DNA of 64,000 nt, taken from assembly GCF_000828085.3 (NCBI RefSeq), contig NZ_JXCA02000001.1, positions 221,296-285,295 of the forward strand, written 5' to 3'. Shown here piece by piece: positions 28,686 through 51,728 of this stretch. The notes below the pieces were generated by a model. It was not told where the DNA came from. It ran no database searches and was given only the letters and a program-made list of their open reading frames with translations. Positions within the stretch are counted from its first letter, which is position 1. Each line of letters opens with the position of its first letter. Origin of the DNA: Scytonema tolypothrichoides VB-61278. GTDB taxonomy: Bacteria > Cyanobacteriota > Cyanobacteriia > Cyanobacteriales > Nostocaceae. Position numbers and translations under genes: made by a program.

Positions 28686-28717
28686 AGGAGCATTTGTATT
28701 CACCTCCCTACAAATTT

Positions 28718-29323
28718 ATGGAACGTCTGACAGAAGCTCAAAAACAACTTTATGAATGGCTGGCTGAATACATACGAGGACACCAGCATTCACCTTCGAT
28801 TCGACAAATGATGCAGGCGATGAATTTAAAATCGCCTGCACCAATTCAAAGTCGCTTGGAACATTTACGCAATAAGGGGTACATTGAATGGAGTGAAGGT
28901 AAAGCACGGACAATTAGAGTTCTACAAGGGTTAAAACAAGGTGTACCAATTTTGGGAACGATCGCCGCTGGTGGATTAATAGAACCCTTCACTGAGGCTG
29001 TAGAAAATATTGATTTCGCTCATTTGTCATTACCTCCCCAAACATATGCTTTGCGGGTTACTGGTGACAGCATGATTGAAGATTCAATCGTGGAGGGAGA
29101 TTTGGTATTTTTGCGTCCAGTGCTAGAACCAGATCAACTCAAAAATGGAACTATCGTCGCCGCCAGAGTAGATAGTATCGGTACGACTTTGAAGCGGTTT
29201 TATCGACTGGGCGATCGCATTACCCTCAAACCTGCAAACCCGAAATACGATCCCATAGAGGTGAACGCTATTCAGGTACAGGTGCAAGGTTCCCTTGTCG
29301 CCATTTGGCGTAATTACAACTGA
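28718..29323 (+). CDS. lexA: LexA repressor
   Basis: About 201 residues from ATG 28718 (MERLTEAQKQ). The N-terminal winged helix (about 1-70) is followed by the S24 autoprotease domain. Its scissile Ala-Gly lies in GTIAAGGLIEP, the catalytic serine in GDSMIEDS and the lysine in TTLKRF, so self-cleavage looks possible. LexA represses DNA-damage genes and in cyanobacteria also some metabolic genes. A LexA box lies at 28672-28685. The Dnd restriction-like helicase gene follows 85 bases later on the same strand. Confidence 0.94.
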   Translation: MERLTEAQKQLYEWLAEYIRGHQHSPSIRQMMQAMNLKSPAPIQSRLEHLRNKGYIEWSEGKARTIRVLQGLKQGVPILGTIAAGGLIEPFTEAVENIDFAHLSLPPQTYALRVTGDSMIEDSIVEGDLVFLRPVLEPDQLKNGTIVAARVDSIGTTLKRFYRLGDRITLKPANPKYDPIEVNAIQVQVQGSLVAIWRNYN

Positions 29324-32639: not shown

Positions 32640-32692
32640 GCTTAAGTTTTCTCTTTAAATTTGTATAATTTTCAGTAATATCGTACGTATGA

Positions 32693-35600: not shown

Positions 35601-35905
35601 AAGTTCAAGCAGGTATTGCCCAGATACAAGCATCCTGGTGAACCGTGTGAGACTATATGGACTGTGGTAATATCGTCTGCTTGCTGAGACAATGCAGTGG
35701 TAATTTGCTCGACACCATCCCATTCTGGGTGCAGGAGTATCACCTGTGTGCCCTTCTCCACTCCAGACATTAGGGTTTGATAATCCGCTACGGCTGTGTC
35801 TATGAATACTAAGTTTTTATAAGTGACACTGCTGGACTGATTCTGCTGTGTTGCAATACCAAAACGATTGTGTCTATCAAGGGTTTGTATTTGAGTTGGC
35901 TGCAT
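32693..35905 (-). CDS. DUF4347 protein with seven propeller repeats and C-terminal DUF4114-like domain
   Basis: A 1070-residue, probably secreted surface protein. The N-terminal DUF4347 domain (about 25-190) shows VHIVSHGSPGCLYLG and LLYGCNIA, a peptidase-like fold found in large cyanobacterial adhesins. Seven PD40-like repeats of about 60 residues follow (about 195-610), each with ISGDGRYVAF and DIFVYDTQT and the spacing of a seven-bladed propeller. A cadherin-like domain (about 610-700) and a G/K/D/N-rich linker come next. The C-terminal part ends GFEDIVNGGDRDYNDLTVRI, a DUF4114-type calcium-binding pattern. The central repeats are very alike in DNA (about 34100-35330), which suggests recent duplication. 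Confidence 0.88.
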   Translation of the reverse strand: MQPTQIQTLDRHNRFGIATQQNQSSSVTYKNLVFIDTAVADYQTLMSGVEKGTQVILLHPEWDGVEQITTALSQQADDITTVHIVSHGSPGCLYLGNTCLNLKTLEFYASFLEGWFPKGSTPSLLLYGCNIAATDIGIEFLGKLRQKTKAKIAASTTPTGHPALGGNWKLEVTTEKMTISLAFPVATQVAYTGVLNPNRVSVGASGNQTNDNSLRPAISASGRYIAFRSDASNLVANDTNNSSDIFVYNTDTGITNRVSVGPSGVEGNNPANGGPAISGDGRYVAFESYASNLVADDTNNFSDIFVYDTQTGTTSRVSVDSQGNQANSLSSSPTISGDGRYVAFESYASNLVADDTNNFNDIFVYDTQTRTTSRVSVNSQSNQGNNASFSPAISADGRYVAFDSFASNLVPEDTNNTRDIFVYDIQTSTTNRVSVNSQGNQGNQISFSPAISGDGRYVAFASYANNLVPPDTNDTGDIFVYDTQTRTTSRVSVDSQGNQGNNESFSPSISGDGRYVAFASYANNLVAGDTNDTADIFVYDTQTRSTKRVSIDSQRNQGNDLSNNSVISASGRYVAYESYASNLVIGDTNNSRDIFLYDTITNNAPTNLALSGTSVDEKVPVATEIGAFITTDLDTNDQHTYSLVTGTGDADNAVFSINGNKLLINNSPNFASKSSYNIRARTTDNGGLYFDKQFTINVNKGVDNGGGKGGDNGGDKGNPSPPPIQPIPTPQLTQIASDVFTIKGNSSQAKLSVQLTQHSSSLVNEVGVFTVDDAQGRINGIVPGSAGYSQAALNRSQVIFSALANTPNGFDTDLTRKLAFDSNANLRFYLVPDSTTDAVLFGNTSLTKVVFPSAANFKVESLNNGEFNAAWKDPLTQNGDFNALGIKVKATNEEFSLGTSLQGKPQDELIDLRQVNTQVKADFILNREAAFSDFIGFYEIADDKGGIDTNGDGIVDLRPGDAGYAQAAVKGRVPGIDLTVNNQATANFTGTFKGGSLYAPFMIVNGKPDALLDSNSNNDPQVYFPFLGANSDKADHVCLLGDNVFGFEDIVNGGDRDYNDLTVRINLSKA

Positions 35906-37800: not shown

Positions 37801-37974
37801 ATGACAAACGAGACTAATATTGATTATGTTCAAGAACCAATTAGTAGTGCTCCACCAGAAGTAAGGCAAATTATTGATCGGGTATGGCAACTGGAGAAAA
37901 GTAGGCTAGATAAGAAAATTAACAGCCATATTAATGATGATATTCTGGCGATTGTGAAGGAAGCGGTGAAATGA
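37801..37974 (+). CDS. 57-residue protein coupled to the SMC-like ATPase
   Basis: ATG at 37801 (MTNETNIDYVQE), preferred to the TTG at 37789. The protein is mainly helical and charged, with EVRQIIDRVWQLEKSRLDKK and a terminal DDILAIVKEAVK. I know no family for it. Its stop overlaps the start of the ATPase by four bases (ATGA), so the two are translated together and it is likely a small subunit or regulator of the ATPase. A TATAAT at 37760-37765 may drive the pair. Confidence 0.65.
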   Translation: MTNETNIDYVQEPISSAPPEVRQIIDRVWQLEKSRLDKKINSHINDDILAIVKEAVK

Positions 37975-40043
37975 AGCTAGCTTCGATTAAACTGTGTAAC
38001 TTTCGCTCTTTTTATGGCAAGACGCCAGAAATCATTCTTGCAGGAGGAGATACTCGCAACACAACGATAATTCACGGTAATAATGGTTCCGGAAAAACGA
38101 GTCTATTGAATGCGTTTACTTGGGTGTTGTATGAGAAATTTAGTGCAGCGTTTGCATCGACTGAACAATTAGTGAATAAGCGTGCGATCGCCGAAGCCAA
38201 ACCCGGACAAGCTGTGGAATGTTGGGTAGAGGTAGAGTGGGAACATGACGGCAAACGCTACAACGTGAAACGCCTGTGTCGGGTTTATAAAAATGAAACT
38301 GACTTCAACGTTACTAAAACAGAATTGCGTATGCAGGTAGCTGGGGATGATGGACGTTGGTATTTTCCACCTCAGCAACCAGAAGACGTGATTGGGCAAA
38401 TTTTACCCATGAGTTTATATCAATATTTCTTCTTTGACGGCGAACGTATTGAAGAGATCGTTCGTTCTGACAAGAAAGCTGAAATCGCTGAAGCCACGAA
38501 GATTTTTTTAGGCGTGGAAGTGATTAACCGTTCCATCAATCATCTCAAGGAAGCTAAAAAAAGTCTCGAAAATGAGTTAAAAGCTATTGGTGATTCAGAA
38601 ATTAAACAGCTTTTGAAACAGCAAAATACTTTCGAGCAGGAAATTGAGCGCATCACAAAGCGACAAACAGAAATTAAACAAGAGTTAGAATATCAAGAAA
38701 CTTTTAAAAAAGAGACAAGCAACCGCTTAAGAGAACTGAGTGCTGCCAAGGAATTAGAAGAAAGACGAAGAGAATTAGAAAAACAAAAAGTATCAACTCA
38801 GGAAAATCTCAGAGAAAGTCGGGAAGCTATTAAAAAAGCAATTTCTGCACGTGGTTATACTATATTACTTTCACAAAACACAGCACAATTTCGAGAAATT
38901 ATAGATGATTTAAAGCAGCGAGGTGAGTTAACCTCTGGAATCTCACGGGAATTTGTGAATGAGTTACTCGACACTCAACGCTGTATTTGTGGTGCAGACT
39001 TATGCCAAGGAAGTCACTCACACGACAATGTGATAAAATTATTAGCTAAAGCGGGTTCTTCAATTGTGGAAGAAACAGCCATCCGCATGAGTGCTCAAGT
39101 CGATGAAATTGACAAGCAAGCAGTTAGCTTTTGGTCAGAAGTTGATAGAGAGCAAGCACGGATTAATCAGTTAAGACAAACTATATCACAAACTGAAGGT
39201 GAGTTAGATAATATTCAAGAACGATTGCGAAAAGATACTAATGAAGAAATTAGCAGTTTACAAAAGCGGTTAGATGAGATTGAAGAGAAAATTAGAGATT
39301 TGATATTAGAACAAGGAGCAAATCAGCAACAAATAGCGAACTTGAAAACTGACTTGGAAGGTTTGAGAAAACAAATCGCCAAGCAAAAACTGAATGAAGA
39401 TAGACAAGCATTGGCGCAACGACGCATCAGCGCGACTCAAGATGCTATTGAACGATTAACAGAAGTCAGAAACCGTCAAGAAAAGCAGTTTCGTTGGCAA
39501 TTAGAAAAGCGGGTACAAGAAATCTTCAACGAAATTTCGTTTACACCTTATATTCCTAAAATCAGCGAGAAATATGAACTGACGCTGGTGGAGAATACGT
39601 CAGGGATCGAAATGCCAGTTGCAGCTTCCACAGGAGAAAATCAAATTCTCAGTTTATCCTTTATTGCCAGCATTATCGATAGAGTACGGGAGTGGAGTGA
39701 AAAGAAAAAAATCCTACTGGTTCCTGATAGTAGCACTTTCCCGATTGTTATGGATTCTCCCTTTGGCAGTTTGGATGAAATTTCTCGACGACAAATCGCA
39801 AAGACAATTCCCAAATTAGCAAATCAGTTAATTGTGTTGGTGACTAAGACGCAGTGGCGGGGTGAGGTGGAAGAAGAAATGGCAGGTAAAATTGGTAGGG
39901 AATATGTGCTGACATACTATTCTTCTAAGCCTGAGTGTGAACAGGATTATATTGACTTGGGTGGGGAACGGTATCCTTTGGTGAGACAAAGTCCGAATGA
40001 GTTTGAGTACACAGAGATTCTTGAGGTGATGCGGGAAAGGTAG
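37971..40043 (+). CDS. DndD-like SMC/Rad50-type ATPase with cysteine hook
   Basis: 690 residues. Walker A is GNNGSGKTS (residues 36-44). The FFFDGERIEEI motif (about 153-163) is shared with DndD. Long coiled coils (about 185-290 and 360-500) flank a turn with CICGADLC (C338, C340, C345), a candidate metal-binding hook. The C-terminal lobe has STGENQILSLSF and the Walker B FPIVMDSPFGSLDE. It is a paralogue rather than a second copy of the DndD at 47747. SMC-like ATPases in defence islands (Lamassu, Gabija-like and others) sense or process DNA ends. Substrate here is unknown. Confidence 0.82.
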   Translation: MKLASIKLCNFRSFYGKTPEIILAGGDTRNTTIIHGNNGSGKTSLLNAFTWVLYEKFSAAFASTEQLVNKRAIAEAKPGQAVECWVEVEWEHDGKRYNVKRLCRVYKNETDFNVTKTELRMQVAGDDGRWYFPPQQPEDVIGQILPMSLYQYFFFDGERIEEIVRSDKKAEIAEATKIFLGVEVINRSINHLKEAKKSLENELKAIGDSEIKQLLKQQNTFEQEIERITKRQTEIKQELEYQETFKKETSNRLRELSAAKELEERRRELEKQKVSTQENLRESREAIKKAISARGYTILLSQNTAQFREIIDDLKQRGELTSGISREFVNELLDTQRCICGADLCQGSHSHDNVIKLLAKAGSSIVEETAIRMSAQVDEIDKQAVSFWSEVDREQARINQLRQTISQTEGELDNIQERLRKDTNEEISSLQKRLDEIEEKIRDLILEQGANQQQIANLKTDLEGLRKQIAKQKLNEDRQALAQRRISATQDAIERLTEVRNRQEKQFRWQLEKRVQEIFNEISFTPYIPKISEKYELTLVENTSGIEMPVAASTGENQILSLSFIASIIDRVREWSEKKKILLVPDSSTFPIVMDSPFGSLDEISRRQIAKTIPKLANQLIVLVTKTQWRGEVEEEMAGKIGREYVLTYYSSKPECEQDYIDLGGERYPLVRQSPNEFEYTEILEVMRER

Positions 40044-40085
40044 TTTTTGAACTTTCAGACACAAATACTCACACACAAAAACAAT

Positions 40086-40113
40086 GTAGAGACACGAAAC
40101 CTCGCGTCTCTAC
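40086..40113. repeat. GTAGAGAC...GTCTCTAC palindrome after the SMC-like ATPase
   Basis: Arms GTAGAGAC and GTCTCTAC lie 42 bases after the ATPase stop. It is the same class as 3016-3043 and may stabilise the 3' end of the mRNA. The rest of the gene-free stretch 40044-40658 shows only short frames, plus a GTTTTTAAAAAC palindrome at 40263-40274. Confidence 0.7.
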
Positions 40114-40262
40114 AGCGTCTTTGCCTAAGTTGATAGAACTCATAAATCCCAGAAGCGTAGATAATATAGAGAGTAGAAAAGAGAGTGCTGTTGCTTCCTA
40201 TGAAGGAAATACAACAAATTCACTTCCAGGTAGTTCTTGAACTACCATGATATTGGGTAATG

Positions 40263-40274
40263 GTTTTTAAAAAC
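40263..40274. promoter_or_regulatory. GTTTTTAAAAAC palindrome upstream of the Uma2 gene
   Basis: A 12-bp perfect palindrome identical to the core at 45093-45104 in the dndB/dndC promoter region. It may be a further binding site of an island regulator, but AT-rich palindromes can arise by chance. Confidence 0.35.
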
Positions 40275-40658
40275 TCTTCTCTCACTGTTCTCATCGCCCC
40301 TGTTGTGACTGTATCAACTTACAGCGCCCTTACTTTTTTCATCTTTGACAATCTTTGGGCTATAGATTGTCTTAATGAGATGTCACCCTAATGCCTGGAG
40401 AACTACTATGTGGAAGTTTCTATTTCTATCTTACTATCACGCGTAGGCAGTTTGTGGTGTTGATGTTGGACACTTTGTTAAAAAGTTTTGTAAAGCACAG
40501 TGAAATTGCTTTTGGACAGATAAACAGCAAAGACGTGGAGGATACAAAAGGGAGAAAGTACGAGTCAAGTATCTACTGTATGGTTAATTAACAGCAATAG
40601 CAAGAAGTTAAAGTTGAAGCAATAGTCTTGTAAAAACACTTTAGCAAAACATTGGGTT

Positions 40659-41228
40659 ATGGTTGCAAGTTCAGATCGTCAGTACATGAGACCTCAGGAG
40701 TACTTGGAATGGGAAGAACGCCAAGACATCAAGTACGAGTACATCAACGGCGAAGTTTTTGCCATGACTGGCGGTACTCTTGCCCATACTACCATTGCTC
40801 TTAACCTGGCTTCGGCATTAAAAAGCCATCTCAGAGGTGGTGGTTGTCGTGCTTTTATGGCGGATGCGAAAGTAGGCGTATCCGAAAACGGATCATTTCA
40901 CTACCCAGATGTGGTTGTTAGCTGTGATCAACGAGATAAACAGGCGATGAAATTCCTTCTCTACCCTTGTCTGATTGTGGAAGTCCTTTCGCCTAGTACA
41001 GAAGGTTATGACAGAGGCGGTAAATTTTACCAATACCGTCGCATTCAGACTTTAAGAGAATACGTTCTTATTGATGCTGAAAAAATCAGTGTAGAATGCT
41101 TTCGGCTGAATGAAAAAAGTATCTGGGAATTACATCCCTACGAGGAGGGGGATGAAGTTCACTTAAGCTGTGTTGATTTTCACTTTCCTATATCTCTGGT
41201 TTATGAAGATGTTCAGTTTTTGAGGTAG
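40659..41228 (+). CDS. Uma2-family putative PD-(D/E)XK nuclease
   Basis: 189 residues of the Uma2 (DUF820) family, very common in cyanobacteria. The fold belongs to the PD-(D/E)XK nucleases. Visible are [17 protein letters not shown] near the N-terminus, [10 protein letters not shown] with the metal-binding PD, and [19 protein letters not shown] with the E-x-L motif. Function is not established, and these genes often travel with transposons. It starts at ATG 40659. It lies in the dnd island, but its family is not specific to Dnd. Confidence 0.88.
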
Positions 41229-41242
41229 GCGTAGTTTTAAAC

Positions 41243-41272
41243 GAACCGCCAAGACGCCAAGGACGCAGAGGG
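41243..41272. repeat. CCGCCAAGACGCCAAGGACGCAGAG-type dispersed repeat
   Basis: This 30-bp sequence reappears in inverted form at about 45165-45190 and 49765-49795 (CTTTGCGTCCTTTGCGGTT type). All three copies lie between genes of the dnd island. Confidence 0.6.
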
Positions 41273-41359
41273 AAGAGAGTGTATGGATGTGTAGTAGATT
41301 GTTGTTACACATCACTTTGACCTTTAAGTTAAGATTGTCACAAACTAGATTTAAGTAAA

Positions 41360-41830
41360 ATGGCTGAAACTGGTAGAATCAGGGTTGCTAAAGATAAGGC
41401 TGAGTTGGTAAAAGCTTTAACATCAGTTGATGGTGCAACTGGTCCTTTTCAAACCTATGCTGATGTGATTGTGTTTGCTGCTGCTTTGGGTGCAAAGCAT
41501 AATAAGCGGGTTCCTTTGGGGGAAATTTCTAAAAGAGAACCATCGCCAATTCCCCAAGAACAGTTTATTGTTAGGGGATATGATACGGTAATTAATTTAA
41601 TTGCAATTACTGAGACTAAGGATATCAAAATTTTATCTTTCAATGAAGACAAAAGTGTTGAAAAACGCAACCACATATTTGAAGAATATGCAAATGGTGG
41701 ACTGGAGTTTTTACAAGCAGAATTACGTGGGGCAGTAGATTACACAGAAAGAATTTTACTAATGCTTAGTTCAGAGAAATTGGAAAGTCAGCCCGAAGAG
41801 GAGTTTGATTTAAGTCGGTTTATTTCATAG
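41360..41830 (+). CDS. DNA phosphorothioation-associated protein 4-like
   Basis: A 156-residue protein whose pattern (IRVAKDKAELVKALT, then FQTYADVIVFAAALGAKHN, then PIPQEQF, then EYANGGLEFL) matches my memory of the Dnd-associated protein 4 family, small proteins found only beside dnd genes. Biochemical role is unknown. The acidic C-terminus EEEFDLSRFIS is typical. It converges with the AIPR gene, and the 237 bases between them hold nothing I recognise. Confidence 0.72.
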   Translation: MAETGRIRVAKDKAELVKALTSVDGATGPFQTYADVIVFAAALGAKHNKRVPLGEISKREPSPIPQEQFIVRGYDTVINLIAITETKDIKILSFNEDKSVEKRNHIFEEYANGGLEFLQAELRGAVDYTERILLMLSSEKLESQPEEEFDLSRFIS

Positions 41831-42066
41831 TTTTTCTAAACAAACACATTTGATAAGCAAAAATTTGTTAATTGATGCGTCTGAGTATCCAAGAATAATA
41901 ATGGGTAAATTGAGGAAGACTGAAAATCATAACGGTTCAGATAAGACCAAAACCATTACCAAGACAACAATGTGAAAGTGCATGCACTTTCACTACACAT
42001 CACCAAATTTCACCCAAAATCCTTAACAGCAACTGTATTGGAGTAGAAATTAATAAGTACATTCAA

Positions 42067-43272
42067 CTACTCAGCCAGCTTTAACTGCATGGGGACTAAA
42101 AGAAGATTAGACCATGTTGAAGCAGAACGACCAAAGAAAGCTGGGTTTCCTCGCCCTTCATTTCTGTATGCGGTTAGCAAGTTATTAAGGAGGGTGCTTC
42201 CCATCTCATCCCATAACTGTTCAACAGGCTTCTCCCACTTTCCATCTTTAATAAAGACACGAAAAGCTGCAAGTATAGGAAATACGAAAGGAAGAGGAAG
42301 AGTATGATTAAATTGCCTACCTGTGATGAACAGATAAGGCTTTTTTTCGACGCCGTTTAACTTGCTAAGTCCTTTTTGTTGATCGTATTCACTGCGAAGG
42401 CACTCCTCAAGATAGAGTACATCCTTGAGTAAAGGCACAATCTCTCTGAAGTCTTCCTTTTTCCAATTCTTGATGAGAGTGCCGTATGCAGTAAAGGTGG
42501 CACTAGGATTTTTAGGTGAACCGTCTGAACCACGCCAAGGATAGATTTTATTATTAATGCAAGCAAGACGACGAACCAAGTCAGTCACATCATATTGCTT
42601 ATCTTCTCCTTCTCTGAAAGCTACATATGGTTTGCAGTCAGCAGGAAGGTATTCTTGGATGATGTCCCACTCCCCAGCCAGATTCTTTAGACTAAACTCC
42701 TCAACACTCTCACTGGTATTGCGATACCTGCTGATGTTTGATATTTCTTCTTCGTTGATGTTGACTAGCACAAATATTTGTACACTAGCCTTTTCCAACT
42801 CTGAATAGTCATTCTTACCCGTTTCTGGTAATGGTTTTGGTTTAGAACGTCTGGATTGAAGCTTATCGTAATTTTCGCGGGCTTTTATGATCGCAGTATA
42901 GGTGTGTCCGCCATTGACAATACCGTTGCCAATCAATTTTTCCTCTTCTTCCTTGCTAGGACTGACCAGCGAAAGCTCAACATCAAAGCCCCCACCAGTA
43001 CCATGACCTTTAACTTGAATAGAGTCTGCAACAATTAGGATACCATTGTTGTAGAAGATAAACTCTTCTGGTTCCTGTGCTAGAGTAGCAAGCATACTCT
43101 TGACAGTCCGCCGTTTCTCGTTTGCTAGCCTAGCATTGGGGTCTAAAGGTAAGTCTTTTGGTACTTGACAGACAGGAACTGTAAGATTCCATATGACTCG
43201 ACCAGATTCTTTGTCCTCTTTGTATGCTTTGCAAGCAGCAGTAGCAAACAATGAAGCAATTGTCGTAAGCAT
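42067..43272 (-). CDS. AIPR family protein (abortive phage infection type)
   Basis: A 401-residue protein of the AIPR family, named for abortive-infection phage resistance. Visible are FIFYNNGILIVAD, NGIVNGGHTYTAI and VLVNINEEEISNISRYRNTSE. The NNGI and NGGH/Q-T motifs are shared with DGQHR-type domains in a broad sense. It starts at ATG 43272 with GGAGA in front (AGGAGACATAA). It lies 153 bases after the DndB-like gene on the same strand and may be cotranscribed. Mechanism is not known for this family. A defence role is inferred from the family name and context. Confidence 0.82.
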   Translation of the reverse strand: MLTTIASLFATAACKAYKEDKESGRVIWNLTVPVCQVPKDLPLDPNARLANEKRRTVKSMLATLAQEPEEFIFYNNGILIVADSIQVKGHGTGGGFDVELSLVSPSKEEEEKLIGNGIVNGGHTYTAIIKARENYDKLQSRRSKPKPLPETGKNDYSELEKASVQIFVLVNINEEEISNISRYRNTSESVEEFSLKNLAGEWDIIQEYLPADCKPYVAFREGEDKQYDVTDLVRRLACINNKIYPWRGSDGSPKNPSATFTAYGTLIKNWKKEDFREIVPLLKDVLYLEECLRSEYDQQKGLSKLNGVEKKPYLFITGRQFNHTLPLPFVFPILAAFRVFIKDGKWEKPVEQLWDEMGSTLLNNLLTAYRNEGRGNPAFFGRSASTWSNLLLVPMQLKLAE

Positions 43273-43425
43273 TTATGTCTCCTGCGCTCTACGGAACGCT
43301 TAAAATGTTTACGTGCCCAACAGGACACATCAACAATTATACGCCAGTAAAAACCCGTAATACTAGCGTGATGAAAAATTTACAAGAATGTCAGAAACCT
43401 TACACTTGCCACATAATTATGCCAA

Positions 43426-45024
43426 TTAAAGAACAGGTGGAAGTCCTACTTGCTTGGGTTCAACAAACTTACCGTCAAACCCAATTGTTTTATTTTCCAC
43501 AGTTCTCGCTTTAGCCAAATCCTTGCGAAGTTCCGCACGTTCCATCTGATCCTGAATTCCACCCAAGATGTAAATCAGTAACTTTGCCGCTAAATCCCGC
43601 CCAGCAACTTGGACTCGCTTTTTATTTGGATCATACAAAATACCGTACCACAGAGATTGCGGGTACTCCATACCGCTAAAACCACCGGAACGGTCGAACT
43701 TTTGCAGCTTCTTAAAAATATCTGCACTCGATCGCCCTTTTTTAAAAACCAAAATACCCAAAGCTTGCGCTAAAGCCACTTGACCAACAGGACGGAAAAG
43801 CATATTTCCTTCGCCGCCATCTTTCTCAAAGCTGAATCGTCGCAATGCAGGCGTACCCTCATCTTCAAGAAGTTTATAACTTGGAAGCGTTGCCAAATAA
43901 TCGAAGAACTTGTGAAACTCCTGTATCCCCTCATAAAGTTCCTCATCCTCTGGACGCATGGGAATGAGACCTTTATCCAAGGGTTTCCAGTGCGAGTACT
44001 TTTGCCCCAAGTATCGTTCAGACATTTCTTTTAAAGCTTGCAGCGTTGTCAAAACTGTTGAGTTGGCTGCAACTGTCGCACTATTCCAATTGACACGAGG
44101 CTTTCGCGTTTCCTGTTGTTCCAAAAGCGGATGATTGACAGCAATTTTTCTGGCAACGATCGCAAAACCATCATCCTCATTCAGCTGTGCTAACTGACCT
44201 TTGGTTAAAGGAACAGCCATCAGGTTCACATGAACAAAGATGGATCTCACCCGTCGCCTTGCCTCTTCGCGGGTTTCACCAACCCCAACTCCACAAATAA
44301 ACTCAATACCAATTTTTTCTTTGGGCAAGCTTTGCAGGTAAGCTGGTTCCACACGATATTGTTCTGCCAAGTCAGCCAAGGTAATGAAAGTTTCGTAAGC
44401 AGTTTTATCCTTTTTGTATCGCTGGAGTTTGCCAGTTTTGAGTAACTCCATCAAACCCTGCACCCCCATCAATCGATGTTGACCATCCAAGGCATAAATG
44501 GTGACATTTTCTTCACAAAGGTTAAGCAGACCGACTTTATCATCTTGATCCAATGCGATGAATTCGGTGGTAGATTTTTTGGCGCGTCCCTGACTATCCC
44601 ACTCAGCAGCTTTGGGATTATCCACCCACGGTTGGTTAATCACCACGAGAACTGGTGGAAACTTGTGACTTTTTCGCGCTGCCAAATACTGCACAAGCGG
44701 TGCTTGACGTGACCAATCAAGAGGACGCTGTTGAATTTCATCAATAGTATCCGCGTCAATTTCGATGTTATCAGTTTCTGGATTGTACTTTTTTTGCAGC
44801 AGTGGTAAGCCAGACGCGAAGTGAACGCGACCCGCAAACCATTCTAGGGTGACAGAACCAACATAAGCCTCGGTACCACCCATCTCAGTTTTCTGAACGA
44901 GAATGCGATCGTTCCTCCCAAGGAACTTCTCTAGCAGTAAAGTGAGTAGCTGTTGGTCTTTGATTTCCCGTTGCAAGTACTCGTTGGTGATGTCAGTGGT
45001 TGGGTCAGATGCGCTGTCCTTCAT
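43426..45024 (-). CDS. dndB: DndB-like DGQHR-domain protein
   Basis: About 533 residues from ATG 45024 (MKDSASDP); a TTG at 45057 is less likely. The hallmark DGQHR motif is in IYALDGQHRLMGVQGL, near residue 195. QLAQLNEDDGFAIVARKIAV is also DGQHR-family-like. In Dnd systems studied elsewhere DndB is dispensable for modification and represses dnd transcription. It is longer than enterobacterial DndB proteins, so the assignment is to the DGQHR group with a DndB role inferred. It is divergent from dndC, with a palindrome-bearing promoter region between them. Confidence 0.82.
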   Translation of the reverse strand: MKDSASDPTTDITNEYLQREIKDQQLLTLLLEKFLGRNDRILVQKTEMGGTEAYVGSVTLEWFAGRVHFASGLPLLQKKYNPETDNIEIDADTIDEIQQRPLDWSRQAPLVQYLAARKSHKFPPVLVVINQPWVDNPKAAEWDSQGRAKKSTTEFIALDQDDKVGLLNLCEENVTIYALDGQHRLMGVQGLMELLKTGKLQRYKKDKTAYETFITLADLAEQYRVEPAYLQSLPKEKIGIEFICGVGVGETREEARRRVRSIFVHVNLMAVPLTKGQLAQLNEDDGFAIVARKIAVNHPLLEQQETRKPRVNWNSATVAANSTVLTTLQALKEMSERYLGQKYSHWKPLDKGLIPMRPEDEELYEGIQEFHKFFDYLATLPSYKLLEDEGTPALRRFSFEKDGGEGNMLFRPVGQVALAQALGILVFKKGRSSADIFKKLQKFDRSGGFSGMEYPQSLWYGILYDPNKKRVQVAGRDLAAKLLIYILGGIQDQMERAELRKDLAKARTVENKTIGFDGKFVEPKQVGLPPVL

Positions 45025-45337
45025 AATGGTTTTTGAAAACTGGAGGCTTTGGTACAAATTAATTCTCTATAATATTCGGGTAATATGAAAAAGTTTTTAA
45101 AAACTTTACGTTTTACAATACTAGGGCTTACGCAAAAACTCTTTTAAACTCTCTTAACTTCGTGTTCTTTGCGTCCTTTGCGGTTTATTTTTTCATTATT
45201 TTGCGTAAGTCCTGAATACTAGGACTGCAATCGCACAGAGTGCCCACACAATTGCGATCGCCCTTGGCAGGGCGAAAGCCCATCGCACTACATATCATTC
45301 GGATGACTAACGTCCGTGTTTAGACAGGGAAGGAGAA
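45025..45337. promoter_or_regulatory. Divergent dndB/dndC promoter region with palindromes
   Basis: GTTTTTGAAAAC (45029-45040) and a perfect 18-bp palindrome AAAGTTTTTAAAAACTTT (45090-45107) are centred 64 bases apart on the dndB side. They are candidate operators, perhaps for DndB itself. A MITE follows at 45124-45214. A GGAGAA ribosome binding site precedes the dndC ATG. Confidence 0.6.
45117..45223. mobile_element. MITE-like element with target duplication in the dnd promoter (copy A)
   Basis: The direct repeat AATACTAGG (45117-45125 and 45215-45223) flanks ends GCTTACGCAAAA and TTTTGCGTAAG. The element is about 90 bp, without a coding region. Its ends are nearly identical to those of copy B at 36613-36757. 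It lies between the palindromes and dndC. Confidence 0.78.
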
Positions 45338-46960
45338 ATGGCTACAGCACAACAGTCAGAAAATCAAAGTCAGCAAGCCCGTACTGTGGCAGAGTTAGTC
45401 GATTATATCCAAGAACTCACCACTGAAATACAAGAACTATACTGTCTGGATGCCATTCCTTGGGTAGTTGGATACTCTGGTGGGAAAGATTCAACAGCGA
45501 CTTTGCAGTTAATTTGGAATGCGATCGCACAACTACCAAGCGAAAAACGAACCAAAGCTATCCATGTGATCACAACAGACACCCTGGTAGAAAACCCTGT
45601 CGTCTCTGCTTGGGTACGCAACTCTCTGGATCAGATGAAGGTCGCGGCGAAAGAACAAGGAATGCCTATTGAACCTCATCTAAATTATCCAGCAATCAAA
45701 GATACTTTTTGGGTATGCTTGATTGGCAAAGGTTACCCAGCACCACGTAACAGATTTAGATGGTGTACTGAACGCCTGAAAATTCAACCCGCCGACAACT
45801 TCATCCGTGAAATGATTCGTGCCAGCGGTGAAGTTATTCTTGTACTTGGTACACGTAAAGCCGAAAGCGTTAAACGGGCTGTAACGATGGCAAAGCATCG
45901 AGACTGGCGAATACGCGATCGCCTCAATACTAATCCCAATCGCCCTAACTCGCTGATTTACCTTCCCATAGAAGACTGGCGTACTCATGAAGTGTGGATT
46001 TACCTCAACCAATGGCAAAATCCTTGGGGATATAGCAACAAAGATTTATTCACCATGTATCGAGGTGCAACAGCTGATAATGAATGTCCCCTCGTGATTG
46101 ATACTTCTACCCCTAGTTGTGGCGATTCTCGCTTTGGTTGCTGGGTTTGCACAATGGTTAGTAAGGATAAATCGATGGAGGCGATGATTCAAAATGACGA
46201 AGAAAAAGAATGGATGCAACCTCTATTAAATATCCGCAATGAATTAGATGCTGAAGATGACCGCGACAAAAGAGACTTCCGTCGCATCTGGGGCGAAGTC
46301 ACATTATTTGAACGCAACATCGATGGAGAAATCTCCGTAGAACCAATTCCTGGTCCCTATACTAAATATTGGCGTGAACATTGGCTAAGAAAAGTTTTAG
46401 AAGCCCAAACACAAATCCGCCGCACAGCACCAGAAAATATGCGTGATATTACCCTAATTACTATAGAAGAATTGAGTGAGATTCGCCGGATTTGGCTAGA
46501 AGAAAAACACGAATTTGATGATACTTTACCGCGCATTTATATGGAATTGACAGGCGAACCTTTTATAGATCCGCGTCCTGGTGCTGGTAACAGTCTCCTG
46601 GGTAGTGATGAATGGGCGGTATTGGAAGAAATTTGTGAAGAAGATGCAATGCACTTAGAACTGATGGCGAAGCTTTTAGACACAGAACGCCAATACCGCA
46701 AAATGTCGCGTCGCGTGGGAATTTACGATGCCCTAGCTAAATGTTTTGAAACAAGTTCCCGTTCTCCAGATGAAGCAATTAAAAATGCCCATTTGAAACG
46801 AGATTTGAAAGCAGCAGCGAGTGAAGGCGACGTTGAAAAAGTTAAGCAGTTGACTTTGGGTGATGTTGCTGTTTCTGAAAATGATCAAACAGCCAAACTG
46901 CAAAATTGGGCAAACATCAAATTTAAAAACAGCGATTCAGCACAGAAACCAGGCGAATAG
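45338..46960 (+). CDS. dndC: DNA phosphorothioation protein DndC
   Basis: A 540-residue PAPS-reductase-like ATP pyrophosphatase that activates sulfur for insertion into the DNA backbone. The PP-loop SGGKDST is at residues 47-53. Cysteines fit the known 4Fe-4S cluster of DndC: C143 (RWCTERLK), C261, C268 and C271 (PSCGDSRFGCWVC). The start at ATG 45338 has GGAGAA in front. Sulfur normally reaches DndC from DndA or IscS; there is no dndA here. The gene is separated from dndD by 786 bases of transposase remnants, which is unusual. Confidence 0.95.
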   Translation: MATAQQSENQSQQARTVAELVDYIQELTTEIQELYCLDAIPWVVGYSGGKDSTATLQLIWNAIAQLPSEKRTKAIHVITTDTLVENPVVSAWVRNSLDQMKVAAKEQGMPIEPHLNYPAIKDTFWVCLIGKGYPAPRNRFRWCTERLKIQPADNFIREMIRASGEVILVLGTRKAESVKRAVTMAKHRDWRIRDRLNTNPNRPNSLIYLPIEDWRTHEVWIYLNQWQNPWGYSNKDLFTMYRGATADNECPLVIDTSTPSCGDSRFGCWVCTMVSKDKSMEAMIQNDEEKEWMQPLLNIRNELDAEDDRDKRDFRRIWGEVTLFERNIDGEISVEPIPGPYTKYWREHWLRKVLEAQTQIRRTAPENMRDITLITIEELSEIRRIWLEEKHEFDDTLPRIYMELTGEPFIDPRPGAGNSLLGSDEWAVLEEICEEDAMHLELMAKLLDTERQYRKMSRRVGIYDALAKCFETSSRSPDEAIKNAHLKRDLKAAASEGDVEKVKQLTLGDVAVSENDQTAKLQNWANIKFKNSDSAQKPGE

Positions 46961-47063
46961 AATGAGACTGTTGGCGAATAAGTGAGGGGTCGTACCCCGT
47001 ATACAGAGGTAAGAATGAGTAATGAGAATGATTGTGTGACAAAAGTGGCATAAATAATAAAGT

Positions 47064-47333
47064 ATGACTCTTCATCCGCGAGACTGGTCAGAAATTCCAG
47101 AAATGACAGTGCAAATTGCACAAAAATCCTTTGCGAAAGGAAACGTGTATATGAAAATGCGGGATGAACTTGGAGTGTTGTACAAAGATAATGACTTTGT
47201 CACGCTGTTTCGGGCAGACTGTGGTCAAAGTGCTTTATCACCAGGACAGTTGGCATTAGTGAGTGTGATGCAATTTGCCGAAGGATTGACTGACCGACAA
47301 GCGGCAGATGCAGTCAGGAGTAGAATTGATTAG
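47064..47333 (+). pseudogene. Transposase N-terminal fragment (IS1182/DUF772 type)
   Basis: 89 codons matching the N-terminus of an IS1182- or IS5-like transposase: MTLHPRDWSEIPEMT, then DFVTLFRADCGQ, then FAEGLTDRQAADAVRSRID. The frame ends exactly where the family continues with a WKYAL-like segment. The catalytic DDE domain is missing. It is a remnant lying between dndC and dndD. Confidence 0.82.
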
Positions 47334-47365
47334 TTTATGCAACAATCATAAAGGAGTGTGAACAG

Positions 47366-47656
47366 TTGAAATGTACTGTAATTGCAGTAGGTGGTGTTGA
47401 GGATCATGTTCATCTGTTAACAGGCTTTCCGCCAACTCTGACTGTATCTGAGTTAATTAAACAAATTAAGGGAAGTTCTTCCCATTTCATCACTCATGAA
47501 GTCAAGCCAGGTGAATTTTTCAAATGGCAAGGTAGCTATGGCGCTTTTACAGTTAGTCATGATGCCATAGACAGCGTAGCTAATTATATCGGAAACCAAG
47601 CTACCCACCATCTTCAAAAATCAATCATTCCTATCTGGGAACTGACTCCTGGATAA
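47366..47656 (+). pseudogene. IS200-like Y1 transposase, 5'-truncated
   Basis: 96 codons from a TTG at 47366, with a chance AAGGAG in front. The HUH motif is in EDHVHLLTGFPP and the catalytic tyrosine in NYIGNQATHH. The first 50 or so residues of a full TnpA, including the RYR-like strand, are missing. The family differs from the tnpA at 3991. It probably arose from a separate insertion. Confidence 0.82.
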
Positions 47657-47746
47657 CCTAAAAATCCTGCATTTAATTAGTCCGCGCAGGCGGACTTTGC
47701 CTGTGTAGACGCGAATTCCATTCGCCTAATATATTAGTATTATCAC

Positions 47747-49741
47747 ATGATATTTCTTGAACTCGTACTAGAAAACTTTGGTCCCTACAATGGACGCCAA
47801 GTTATCAACCTTAACCCACAAGAGAATGAGAATTCTCGCCCCATCATTTTATTAGGTGGAATGAACGGTGGTGGCAAAACAACTTTGATGGACGCGATTC
47901 GCCTCGCCCTTTATGGACCTCGTGCTCAATGTTCTACTCGTGGTAATTTAAGCTATGGTGATTTTCTCACCCAATGCGTTAACAGTCATACTCCAGCGAT
48001 TGATAAAACCCGGATTGAATTGCTTTTTGAACACATTGAAAATGATAAGCCAGTCAAATACCGTATTGTGCGAACTTGGGAAAAAAATCCGAAAGATGGT
48101 AAAGACCATTTAGGAATTTATGAATTAGACGCAAGACTTGAGGATTGGCCCAGAGAAGAATTAGTGAACACTTGGGACGATTATATTGAAAATCTACTCC
48201 CTTTAGGAATTTCTAATTTGTTTCTCTTTGACGGTGAACAGGTTAAAGAACTTGCAGAACAGGAAGTACCACCACCTATTGTCGTTGATGCAATTCGTGG
48301 ACTTTTAGGGCTAGAGTTGGCAGAACGTTTAGCAGTTGATCTAGAAATTGTAGTCAACCGCAAACGTAAAGAAATAGCCGAAACTAAAGATTTGGTAAAT
48401 TTAGAAGAAATTGAAAAAAGACTCAAACAACAACAAGCTGAATACGAAGAAAATAAAAACAGAAATGAAAACTTAAAAACAGAATTACAAGAATCAGAAA
48501 AAGAAAAGCAAGAAGCGTTTGATAAATTTGTTTCTGAAGGCGGTAAACTCGCAGCGGAACGAAATCAGCTAGAACTACAAAAGAAACAAAAAACTGCTGA
48601 GGTAGAACAAGCACGTCAGGGGATGTGTCAATTAGCGGATAGTATCCTGCCACTCGCGTTGATTGAACCTCTACTAACTCAAGCCCAACGCCAAGGAGAA
48701 AAAGAATTTCGTATTCAACAGGCACAAATAGCAAGAGATATCTTGTTTGATCGAGATCAACGTTTACTCAATTGGATGACTCAATTAGGCATTTCCGAAG
48801 AACAAGTTGAAAAAATCAAAGTATTTTTGGAAAAAGATGAAGAGACATTGCGAGCCAATTTGATACAACCAGAAGAATCTTGGTTATTAGCTGACGCTGA
48901 AACTTTAAGTCAATTGGGTAATGTTTTCTACTACTTGCAAAATGACAAGAAAATAGCCAAGCAGCAAATTGGTATTCTCAAAAATAAGGAAGAAGAAATT
49001 ATAACTCTGGAAAGACAAATACAGACTGCAGCCGAACCAGAAGCTTATAAACAGTTAGTTGAGACACTGGAAGCAGCACAAAATAAAGTTTCCCAAATTC
49101 AAGCAGCAAGCGTTGTCACAAAACGCCGCTGTGATGAACTAGAAGCTGAAATAAAAAATATCAAAAAGGACTTACAAGAATATAGTAAGCAAAATATTGA
49201 CCGCAAAAACTACGAACATATTATTACCTCTGCTGCTAAAGTCCAACAAACACTTAAGCTTTTCCGCGAAAAATTAACCCTGCGTAAACTAAACAAACTC
49301 GAAGTCGAAGTCACCGAGTGCTTCCGCTACCTCCTCCACAAATCAGACTTAGTCCATCGCATCGCAATTGACACTCACACCTTTAGCCTCTCGCTGTACG
49401 ATTTACAAGGTAAACCCGTTCCAAAACATCGCCTTTCGGCTGGCGAAAAACAACTCTTAGCGATCGCCTTCCTTTGGGGATTAGCCCGTGTTTCCGGACG
49501 ACGCTTACCAGTCGCAATTGACACACCCCTAGGACGCTTAGACTCTTCTCACCGCAGTAACCTAGTTGAACGTTACTTTCCATCAGCCAGCCATCAAGTC
49601 ATTTTGTTATCGACTGATACAGAGATAGGAGAAAAAGAAGTCAAAATATTGCGAGAAAACGAGGCGATCGCCCGCGAACACCTCCTCGAATACAACTCAT
49701 CCACCCGCCAAACAACAGTTCAACCAGGTTACTTCTGGTAA
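47747..49741 (+). CDS. dndD: DNA phosphorothioation ATPase DndD
   Basis: 664 residues. An SMC-like ATPase: Walker A GGMNGGGKTT (residues 37-46), the DndD hallmark LFLFDGEQVKELAEQE, long coiled coils (about 200-290 and 410-520), the ABC signature LSAGEKQLLAIAF and Walker B LPVAIDTPLGRLD (D592). It lacks a cysteine hook. DndD is thought to use ATP to nick or open DNA for sulfur insertion. It starts at ATG 47747, followed by dndE after 64 bases. Confidence 0.94.
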   Translation: MIFLELVLENFGPYNGRQVINLNPQENENSRPIILLGGMNGGGKTTLMDAIRLALYGPRAQCSTRGNLSYGDFLTQCVNSHTPAIDKTRIELLFEHIENDKPVKYRIVRTWEKNPKDGKDHLGIYELDARLEDWPREELVNTWDDYIENLLPLGISNLFLFDGEQVKELAEQEVPPPIVVDAIRGLLGLELAERLAVDLEIVVNRKRKEIAETKDLVNLEEIEKRLKQQQAEYEENKNRNENLKTELQESEKEKQEAFDKFVSEGGKLAAERNQLELQKKQKTAEVEQARQGMCQLADSILPLALIEPLLTQAQRQGEKEFRIQQAQIARDILFDRDQRLLNWMTQLGISEEQVEKIKVFLEKDEETLRANLIQPEESWLLADAETLSQLGNVFYYLQNDKKIAKQQIGILKNKEEEIITLERQIQTAAEPEAYKQLVETLEAAQNKVSQIQAASVVTKRRCDELEAEIKNIKKDLQEYSKQNIDRKNYEHIITSAAKVQQTLKLFREKLTLRKLNKLEVEVTECFRYLLHKSDLVHRIAIDTHTFSLSLYDLQGKPVPKHRLSAGEKQLLAIAFLWGLARVSGRRLPVAIDTPLGRLDSSHRSNLVERYFPSASHQVILLSTDTEIGEKEVKILRENEAIAREHLLEYNSSTRQTTVQPGYFW

Positions 49742-49805
49742 CCTCTCTGAATTATTCTTTCCTTTGTGTCCTTTGCGCCTTTGCGGTTCGTTATTCTAAG
49801 ACAAC

Positions 49806-50195
49806 ATGGAAACCCCAATAGATCGTATCAAACTCTCCCAAACAGCCAAAGACCAACTCCTCAAACTCAGACGCAACACCAAAATCGACCAATGGAACAT
49901 CCTGTGTCGTTGGGCGTTTTGTCGTTCCTTAGCCGAACCAACTTCACCCTCACCCGTCCCAATTCCTCAAGATAGCAACGTCGAGATGACATGGCGTGTC
50001 TTTGGCGGCGAAATCTCTGATATATTGTTACTCGCCCTCAAGCAACGCTGCTACAACGATGGCTTCCCAACAGACAAAGAAACCCTAGCGACACAATTTC
50101 GCCTCCACCTACATCGCGGTATTGGTTACCTCGCAGGCGATCCAAATATCAAGAAGATTGAAGATTTAGTTGAATTAGCGACGAAAAAGATATAA
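49806..50195 (+). CDS. dndE: DNA phosphorothioation protein DndE
   Basis: A 129-residue small helical protein. Family patterns are DRIKLSQTAKDQLLKLR, then QWNILCRWAFCRSLAEP, then EMTWRVFGGEISDIL. DndE is known to bind nicked DNA and to associate with DndC and DndD. Length fits. It starts at ATG 49806, and a repeat of the CTTTGCG type precedes it. The putative methyltransferase follows. Confidence 0.93.
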   Translation: METPIDRIKLSQTAKDQLLKLRRNTKIDQWNILCRWAFCRSLAEPTSPSPVPIPQDSNVEMTWRVFGGEISDILLLALKQRCYNDGFPTDKETLATQFRLHLHRGIGYLAGDPNIKKIEDLVELATKKI

Positions 50196-50264
50196 GGATT
50201 AATAAGCCACAGATGCACACAGATGCTTATGATTGTGTTTATCTGTGGTTCTTTTAATATCCTT

Positions 50265-51728
50265 ATGTCGTCACAGAACTACGTAGAAATAGAACGCCAT
50301 AAAGCCGCGATTTTTCGCACTGACTTATCCAGACCTGTGCGATTGGCAATAGAATGGTCAATTATAAATAACAATACCACGTTTTTTGATTACGGTTGCG
50401 GACACGGTGGCGATGTACAGCGAATAGCCAACTTAGGCTACACCAGTGCAGGCTGGGATCCATACTACTACCCTGATACGCCGTGCATTTGCGCTGATGT
50501 CGTGAATTTGGGCTACATCCTGAACGTGATTGAAGACCCAGAGGAACGTCGTCAAGCTCTTTGCAAAGCATGGGAACTCGCCCAAAAAGTCTTAATTGTT
50601 GCGGCTCAAGTTTTGATAAATGCTCCCAGCAAGACTCAAGTTGCTTACAGTGATGGTATCGTCACAAGTCGCAATACCTTTCAGAAATATTACGAGCAAG
50701 AAGAACTCAAAAGTTACATTGATGAAAGCCTGAGTGTAGATGCGGTACCAGTCGCGTTGGGTGTGTATTTTGTTTTTCGAGATGAAGCTGAAAAGGAAGA
50801 ATTCAAAGCGATACGCTTTTTCTCTAGAACCTCAACACCAAAGGTACGCATTCCTACGAAACGGTTTGAGGACTACAAAGAAATGTTGGAACCACTGATG
50901 TATTTTTTTACTCTACGTGGAAGACTTCCAGTCAAAGGCGAATTGGATAACGAACAGGAATTACTCGGTGAATTTGGGAACTTCCGCCGTGCTTTTGGTG
51001 TGGTTTTACAAGCAACTGATGAGGCAGAATGGGATGCGATCGCCTACCGTCGCTCTCTTGATATCCAAGTTTATCTTGCTCTCACCCACTTCGATAAACG
51101 CCCGACATCGCATAAATTATCACCAGAAATGCGCCATGATATCAAAGCCTTTTTTGGCAGTTATGAAGAAGCTTGCGAAGTTGCTGATGCTAAGCTTTTC
51201 AGTTTGGGGAAAACCGAAGTCGTGCAAACTGCTTGCGAAAAAAGTAAAATAGGCAAACACACTCGTAGCGCCCTTTACGTCCATGTTTCTGCGCTTGGCG
51301 AACTTGACCCCTTGCTGCGAATTTACGAAGGCTGCGCTAGCCGCACTATTGGGCGTGTCGATGACGCAACACTGATAAAGTTTTGTCTAGATGAACCGCG
51401 AATATCCTACCTGTTCTACCCGGAATTCGATACTGATGCTCATCCAGCATTAAAGGCGAGTATCACGATTGATTTAAAAACTTTGCGCATAACTCACCGA
51501 GATTATGAACAAAGGAAAAATCCGCCAATTCTCCATCGTAAAGAAACATTTGTCACCTCTAACTATTCATTATACCAAGAATTTGCTGAACTCACCCAAC
51601 AAGAACAAAAATTAGGACTACTCAAGCATAAAAGCGAGATTGGTACTCGTGAAGGTTGGGCAAAATGTCTTGCAGAACGCGGTGTAGAAATCATAAGTCA
51701 TCAAATTCATTTCCTTAACGAAAGTTAA
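50265..51728 (+). CDS. DNA phosphorothioation-associated putative methyltransferase
   Basis: About 487 residues from ATG 50265 (MSSQNYVEIERHK). Upstream residues from 50223 are read through a CACAGATG-type repeat and are unlikely to be translated. The AdoMet motif is FFDYGCGHGGDVQRI and motif II VVNLGYILNVIED. The family is known as a Dnd-related putative methyltransferase and often closes cyanobacterial dnd operons. Target is not shown. It may add a methyl group beside the phosphorothioate or act in restriction control. The body contains CEVADAKLFSLGK and HVSALGELDP, which are family-typical. Confidence 0.86.
   Translation: MSSQNYVEIERHKAAIFRTDLSRPVRLAIEWSIINNNTTFFDYGCGHGGDVQRIANLGYTSAGWDPYYYPDTPCICADVVNLGYILNVIEDPEERRQALCKAWELAQKVLIVAAQVLINAPSKTQVAYSDGIVTSRNTFQKYYEQEELKSYIDESLSVDAVPVALGVYFVFRDEAEKEEFKAIRFFSRTSTPKVRIPTKRFEDYKEMLEPLMYFFTLRGRLPVKGELDNEQELLGEFGNFRRAFGVVLQATDEAEWDAIAYRRSLDIQVYLALTHFDKRPTSHKLSPEMRHDIKAFFGSYEEACEVADAKLFSLGKTEVVQTACEKSKIGKHTRSALYVHVSALGELDPLLRIYEGCASRTIGRVDDATLIKFCLDEPRISYLFYPEFDTDAHPALKASITIDLKTLRITHRDYEQRKNPPILHRKETFVTSNYSLYQEFAELTQQEQKLGLLKHKSEIGTREGWAKCLAERGVEIISHQIHFLNES

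Follow-up and report, generated by a model that had tools for sequence, protein, structure and literature searches.

The window analysed here comprises 64,000 nucleotides of the cyanobacterium Scytonema tolypothrichoides VB-61278 (contig NZ_JXCA02000001.1, positions 221,296 to 285,295; positions below are those of the window) and is part of a 7.89 Mb genome in 31 contigs, 99.97% complete. As judged from profile searches and gene order, it bears a complete set of pbeABCD and dndCDE genes, all inside a single 22 kb stretch, with linked genes for a DGQHR protein and a putative methyltransferase. What is new concerns PbeA: the standard PbeA of Cyanobacteriales is helicase-only, yet the HKD nuclease is retained in copies from other orders of the same class. 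On balance, we favour the view that the locus represents a vertically inherited Dnd-Pbe phosphorothioate (PT) self-marking system of Cyanobacteriales, with a Pbe-type interference arm that would not cleave DNA and with an optional Uma2 nuclease.

The pbeA-type gene (29409..30887, +) lies directly after lexA and encodes an SF2/XPB-like helicase without N-terminal HKD nuclease. It was found in a genome search with TIGR04095 (dnd_restrict_1; 668 bits, cut-off 600), and its relatives are XPB/RAD25. The PADLOC PbeA profile has 682 positions and covers the window gene at 242-681 only. Profile positions 1-240 have no match anywhere else in the genome; a fused HKD nuclease is absent.

The initial annotation, made from positions 37801 to 51728, named dndC, dndD, dndE, a DGQHR gene, a methyltransferase, dnd_assoc_4, a second DndD-like ATPase with a small protein, Uma2 and AIPR. 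All of these are present, as confirmed by hidden Markov models or gene calls. Its statement that no pbe genes are visible was mistaken: the ATPase and small protein are assigned here as PbeC and PbeB, dnd_assoc_4 as PbeD, and pbeA lies upstream of the part that it covered. The ATPase (37971..40043, +) reaches 1180 bits with a PADLOC PbeC model (PDLC02753) and 168 bits with DndD (TIGR03185, cut-off 246); a P-loop GNNGSGKT and the CIC motif of CxC-type ABC ATPases were recognised by eye. Since it is under the DndD cut-off and strongest to PbeC, a duplicate of DndD was rejected. The true DndD also scores 987 bits to one PADLOC PbeC model, so the two sets of models overlap, and PbeC was assigned from three things together: the model with the highest score, a DndD score under its cut-off, and gene order. 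The small protein (57 aa, two predicted helices; 37801..37974, +) has a stop codon overlapping the pbeC start (ATGA) and is assigned as PbeB by position and size, as it has no match to any PADLOC model. Its structure model has pLDDT 82, and a fold search returned three matches, the best at E 7.7.

The dnd genes follow in the same stretch. DndC sulfurtransferase (45338..46960, +; TIGR03183, 719 bits), DndD ATPase (47747..49741, +; TIGR03185, 733 bits) and DndE (49806..50195, +; PF08870 and TIGR03184, sole TIGR03184 match in the genome) each exceed the NCBIfam cut-off. They are accompanied by the Dnd-associated putative methyltransferase (dnd_rel_methyl; 50223..51728, +; TIGR04096, 711 bits) and by the DGQHR/DndB-like gene (43426..45057, -; TIGR03187, 196 bits; PF14072), divergent from dndC. 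No desulfurase was found among the scanned locus genes and no linked dndA was seen. As to dndFGH, the sole model searched, TIGR03238 (dnd_assoc_3), had no match in the genome and none in control genomes either, so that this absence is weakly tested.

Two sets of loci served for comparison. The first consists of 120 Cyanobacteriales loci (80 PbeC-centred, 20 PbeA-centred, 20 DndC-centred) plus the window, hand-picked from the top scores among the matches listed, mostly one per genus outside the window's family and including 26 other family genomes for PbeC; low-scoring matches were unlisted and are therefore under-represented. The second consists of 80 named loci, the best 80 of 417 for PbeD, with titles naming Nostocales or other cyanobacteria. 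The two sets overlap in part, and totals drawn from them jointly (108, made up of 46 and 62, with some species in each) are therefore not independent. Many fetched loci stop short of dndD, dndE or the methyltransferase gene.

Comparison of these loci supports the assignments of the small genes. In 81/81 loci a homologue of the small protein precedes PbeC in the same orientation, with a 4-base overlap in 72 and at a distance of 72-1604 bp in four, and among the named loci a PbeB homologue is present in 58/58. The dnd_assoc_4 gene (41360..41830, +; TIGR04062, 198 bits) follows PbeC in three bacterial phyla. On plasmids of Ruegeria, Pontibrevibacter and Rhizobium, a gene annotated as "DNA phosphorothioation-associated protein 4" stands directly 3' of a PbeC-type ATPase, and a homologue holds the same position in Arthrobacter (record without gene annotation). 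When the cyanobacterial dnd_assoc_4 profile was compared with the same-position haloarchaeal genes, it gave 37.7 bits for Halococcus, 26.0 for Halorhabdus and 24.4 for Natrinema; with bacterial members added to the profile, the scores rise to 37-42 bits. Because only eight targets were used, the E-values of these haloarchaeal matches carry no weight. We conclude from position and profile that dnd_assoc_4 is PbeD, the profile link to the haloarchaeal genes being weak but consistent. No PADLOC model matched it at E 0.01. The first eight PDB matches found by Foldseek were all DndE, but weak at E 0.58-1.5 and obtained with a poor predicted fold (best pLDDT 64.5, four further models at 37-39), and profile-profile comparison of PbeD with DndE was negative. 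Identity of PbeD with DndE (clade-2) is proposed by Rakesh, Aravind and Krishnan (2024, PMC10853773; this and the other papers cited here are drawn on in excerpt). In the founding haloarchaeal system, PbeB has 66 aa and PbeD 152 aa (PMC6459918); here they have 57 and 156 aa.

Absence of the HKD region is a general feature of the order. It is missing in 74/77 PbeA copies (75 genomes, fetched Cyanobacteriales loci), and in the named loci all 37 PbeA consist of the helicase part only, including one that is truncated at 230 aa. In the survey of the order, PbeA open frames among the matches listed do not exceed 577 aa. The three HKD-bearing copies of the order (L039, L056 and L125) adjoin pbeD or dndC; in L039 and L056 they are second copies, with a helicase-only copy also present. 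These second PbeA-like helicases are located at L039 13007-14746 and L056 11062-13041, in both cases adjoining pbeD. Outside the order, 9 PbeA matches were found among 116 genomes drawn from the class. Their frames have 701-767 aa, all nine contain the HEKLG motif, and PLDc_2 was detected in all three that were scanned (24-31 bits, one under the cut-off of 27). The operon is compact in these genomes and includes the U1 kind of Uma2 (see below) in 5/9 and a gene for an HNH nuclease in 6/9.

A phylogenetic tree of PbeA (unrooted; 76 of 83 rows kept, those with the exact GSGKT motif) splits 67 helicase-only sequences from the 9 outside ones by a branch with support 100/97, which is consistent with one loss of HKD at the base of Cyanobacteriales. 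Uniqueness of such a loss to this order was rejected, since HKD is also lacking from the PbeA proteins (469 and 477 aa) encoded next to pbeB, pbeC and pbeD at two haloarchaeal plasmid loci (L222 and L223, from Natrinema and Halorhabdus). HKD may thus not strictly define PbeABCD or CxC ATPase systems. On a Pseudanabaena galeata plasmid (L227 6285-8423), a PbeA of 476 aa is annotated whose start codon lies 13 bp beyond the end of an HKD region (79-82% identity).

Distribution of the genes was examined in 291 Cyanobacteriales genomes, with DndC counted over its cut-off, PbeC at E up to 1e-100 and PbeA at E up to 1e-80. DndC was found in 226 genomes, PbeC in 242 and PbeA in 243 (239 over cut-off). 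All three occur together in 217 genomes and none of them in 39. DndC is accompanied by PbeC in 221 of the 291 genomes (odds ratio 93, each genome being taken as an independent case), and only three contain DndC without either Pbe gene. PbeA and PbeC are found together in 236; 19 genomes have both without DndC over cut-off, six of which show a weaker DndC match.

Helicase-only PbeA is under purifying selection like that of neighbouring housekeeping genes: its median dN/dS (over pairs with dS 0.1-1.5) is 0.085, compared with 0.084 for lexA and 0.077 for otc. Values for the other genes are 0.098 for DGQHR, 0.107 for AIPR (3 pairs), 0.122 for PbeC, 0.159 for dndD, 0.16 for dndC, 0.165 for PbeB and 0.237 for PbeD; the two kinds of Uma2 described below, U2 and U1, have 0.157 and 0.22. 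Within the family, correlations (rho) of pairwise distances with those of otc are 0.73 for PbeA, 0.72 for PbeC, 0.70 for DGQHR, 0.89 for DndD and 0.66 for lexA, in comparison with 0.48 for DndC and 0.04 for PbeD. Most of the core is thus inherited with the chromosome, whereas some exchange is indicated for DndC and PbeD. Alleles of pbeD and dndC are common to families f1, f12 and f18, and a weak correlation exists between their residual distances (partial r 0.22, permutation p 0.002). The lexA gene (28694..29323, +; TIGR00498, 206 bits) directly precedes pbeA as a flank and is possibly co-transcribed with it. It is situated no more than 2 kb 5' of pbeA in 27/28 genomes of the window's family, in 5/5 of family f18 and in 0/42 of other families. 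The initial annotation had described a Dnd island. A Dnd locus it is, but it does not behave as a mobile island: lexA keeps its place 5' of pbeA in this family, and the distances of PbeA, PbeC, DGQHR and DndD track a housekeeping gene.

These data also bear on a different function. After loss of the PbeA nuclease, Dnd-Pbe may have become a system of chromosome maintenance or stress response, with lexA co-expressed in this family and PT marks read by the SMC-like ATPase and the XPB-like helicase. The presence of all three genes in 217 genomes, the vertical signal and a constraint on PbeA equal to that on lexA and otc speak for this, as do the position of lexA in the family and LexA-box-like sites, which were seen 5' of lexA in 21/32 copies. 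Moreover, an antioxidant origin in Cyanobacteria was proposed by Jian et al. (2021, PMC8569181). On the contrary, no such site was found 5' of pbeA (0/77) or 5' of pbeC (0/81), the lexA link is missing from other families except f18, 39 genomes dispense with all three genes, and accessory nuclease and AIPR/DGQHR genes vary in one slot, as they do in defence loci. We therefore regard such domestication as doubtful. The corresponding history seems to us similarly tentative: in the ancestor of Cyanobacteriales, the restriction enzyme of a PT system would have been stripped of its nuclease, and the system would then have been fixed as a near-core genome maintenance apparatus, in which sulfur marks on the chromosome are read by the SMC-like ATPase and XPB-like helicase, beside lexA in one family. 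If this is true, the published view of cyanobacterial PT without a reader arm would be wrong.

The Uma2-family gene between pbeC and pbeD (40659..41228, +; PF05685, 145 bits) encodes a putative PD-(D/E)XK nuclease and matches the solved structure 9y1l at E 1.6e-8. The genome contains 46 Uma2 matches, so nearness alone means little. Nevertheless, 32 of 53 loci have Uma2 between pbeC and pbeD (30 when only genes of at least 150 aa are counted), and so do 29/58 in the named set (28 with a gene of at least 150 aa). The pbeC-pbeD intervals of the 53 loci, 70.5 kb in total, contain 43 Uma2 genes on the pbeC strand (41 of at least 150 aa), where about 0.2 would be expected from the density of the window's genome only (46 in 7.89 Mb, half per strand). 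Three 1 kb bins at and after the PbeC 3' end contain 15, 30 and 2 same-strand Uma2 genes and other bins 0 or 1; on the opposite strand around PbeC there are at most 4 per 1 kb bin. Uma2 genes at this place are of several kinds. U1 abuts or overlaps pbeC and did not come out as a single clade; U2, to which the window gene belongs, is a clade with 16 members (support 100/99); and there are a few others. By position, Uma2 is thus a real partner of the Dnd-Pbe locus. Its role as a replacement for the lost HKD was rejected, since U1-type Uma2 stands beside full-length PbeA in 5/9 loci from outside the order. The other AIPR match of the window's genome (C1:1173160-1174945) also adjoins a Uma2 gene.

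The interval between pbeD and DGQHR is, in contrast to the core, a variable slot. In the window it is occupied by the gene for an accessory AIPR protein (42067..43272, -; PF10592, 119 bits), of which the genome has two copies. Among 108 loci, the slot contains a second DGQHR protein (about 400 aa) in 33, other DGQHR proteins in 11, and otherwise other genes or nothing of size. An HNH nuclease with a sulfur-binding domain (SBD-HNH) occurs in 25/108 loci, 22 with a frame of at least 290 aa; one member was searched and matched the sulfur-binding domain structure 8h0l (SBDHga1) at E 4.6e-16. No SBD-HNH gene was found in the window's genome by a search that lacked a positive control. AIPR was detected in 5/108 loci. 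Four of them also carry HNH, the remaining one being the window; another locus with both AIPR and HNH, L140, is uncounted because it ends before DGQHR. AIPR is thus rare and accessory, not a conserved part of the locus. In a single locus, Nostoc sp. 106C (L168 10544-12937), the slot holds a 797-aa GmrSD_N/DUF262 protein (1/108); DUF262 is reported in DndI and SspE (PMC11662687).

These counts bear on the proposal of the initial annotation that the extra ATPase with its small protein, Uma2 and AIPR form a new restriction or abortive arm of a Dnd modification island, replacing pbe, dndFGH or ssp. The Uma2 association is real and well beyond chance, and AIPR is a family that can act in abortive infection (PMC3506569). 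As regards the ATPase with its small protein, however, the proposal is already contradicted, as they correspond to PbeC and PbeB and are accompanied by PbeA and PbeD; AIPR in turn does not occur regularly, although no chance expectation was computed for it. A new arm of this kind is therefore very improbable.

The window differs from its relatives in several interruptions, two of which, a 7 kb insertion and transposase fragments, the initial annotation did not name. The insertion parts pbeA from pbeB, whereas pbeA and pbeC are less than 1 kb apart in 34/37 named relatives having both, and PbeA is within 1.5 kb 5' of PbeC in 46/81 loci. Genes of the insertion are outside the system (31149..35905, -) and encode a multicopper oxidase (31149-32639) and a DUF4347/beta-propeller protein (32693-35905). 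The latter, on the minus strand, is composed of about seven tandem propeller-like repeats of 174 bp (58 aa) each. Two transposase fragments, an IS1182-type N-terminus followed by an IS200-type C-terminus, are located between dndC and dndD (47064..47656). The compact arrangement is illustrated by Tolypothrix campylonemoides, the nearest relative by PbeD (93%), with the order otc-lexA-pbeA-pbeB-pbeC-Uma2-pbeD-HNH followed by DGQHR in reverse orientation and dndC-dndD-dndE-methyltransferase. The window shows the same order plus the insertion, the transposase fragments and the AIPR gene, and no HNH gene was found. Remnants of Uma2 or HNH sought in the gaps of the window gave nothing better than E 0.1. 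At about 40270-40570 there is a weak trace (tblastn 3e-4) of the SLH-domain protein gene that follows pbeC in relatives.

One may ask if the system still works in this strain. Its decay would account for the insertion, the transposase fragments, the trace between pbeC and Uma2 and the HNH gene that is present in relative L133 and was not found here (again by the search without positive control). In opposition to this, all core frames are open and of full length, ATPase motifs are intact by eye, similar gaps are seen in relatives, and pairs including the window have dN well below dS (for PbeA, for example, dS 1.0 and dN 0.1). Decay of this copy is hence unlikely.

The favoured Dnd-Pbe self-marking system would operate as follows. 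DndC, DndD and DndE, together with a housekeeping cysteine desulfurase (assumed to be IscS/SufS), would put sulfur into the DNA backbone, probably restrained by the divergent DGQHR protein. PbeC, with PbeD and PbeB, would scan DNA, and PbeA, being only an XPB-like helicase, may move on unmarked DNA and block replication without cutting; Uma2 might serve as an optional cutter of the same complex. Haloarchaeal PbeABCD requires PT and halts viral DNA replication, no cleavage having been seen (PMC6459918), and a nuclease-less PbeA under housekeeping-grade constraint fits this non-cleaving model. Several points weigh against our interpretation. PT in this organism is a prediction from its genes, and defence systems are not usually found in nearly all members of an order. 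Pbe systems are argued to cleave by HKD (PMC10853773), which is absent here, and without PbeA less than tenfold of the roughly 10^4-fold protection remains (PMC6459918). Uma2 is missing from 21/53 loci and cannot be obligatory. The insertion and transposase fragments may impair expression in this strain. Finally, a quick tree of 48 PbeA rows, including one long-branched HKD-bearing second copy, puts the 9 outside sequences among those of the order, so that a single HKD loss is not secured.

We found no description of this cyanobacterial Dnd-Pbe-Uma2 arrangement in the open-access literature, some candidate papers being judged by title. One species of interest for PbeC, Hydrococcus rivularis, is a cyanobacterium. 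Likeness of PbeC to a protein of this species was noted along with the DndCDEA-PbeABCD system of Haloterrigena jeotgali (Xiong et al. 2019, PMC6459918). That system shares dndCDE with pbeA-B-C-D; in the window, by comparison, PbeA lacks HKD, a Uma2 gene separates pbeC from pbeD, and genes for DGQHR and a methyltransferase, but as far as seen not dndA, are linked. PT-dependent SBD-HNH nucleases (SBDHga1, 8h0l) have a relative in the slot of the 25 loci mentioned above. Occurrence of dndC-D-E has been noted in Microcystis (PMC2442094). In Microcoleus, dndBCDE is preceded by a restriction enzyme of PT systems (PMC8546630), the same kind of enzyme beside cyanobacterial dnd genes, so that one cyanobacterial genus with a PbeA-type gene has been published before; PbeB-C-D, the missing nuclease and Uma2 go unmentioned in the passages concerned.

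Systems with CxC ABC-ATPases (PMC10853773) share with our locus the CxC ATPase, the small protein, the SF2 helicase and the tandem with DndD/DndE. In their vast majority they contain HKD-helicase fusions and a rapidly evolving, mostly disordered small protein, whereas our locus lacks HKD and has a small protein of good conservation. According to that paper, the ATPase pair scans DNA, with cleavage by HKD expected; its main text contains no mention of Uma2, AIPR or cyanobacteria. Our analysis assigns Uma2, a family with 46 matches in the window's genome, to one particular system as a partner, and it identifies dnd_assoc_4 as PbeD.

Cyanobacterial dnd clusters described by Jian et al. (PMC8569181) comprise the same dnd genes, are enriched in Nostocales and are considered to follow an independent cyanobacterial path. 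According to the excerpts of that work, dndFGH and PT restriction components are absent in Cyanobacteria. This differs from our finding of PbeA with PbeC in 236 of the 291 genomes and of a Pbe arm that co-occurs with DndC, nuclease-less yet strongly constrained. Nuclease-less Pbe thus provides a natural test of the dispute between cleavage (PMC10853773) and block without cleavage (PMC6459918).

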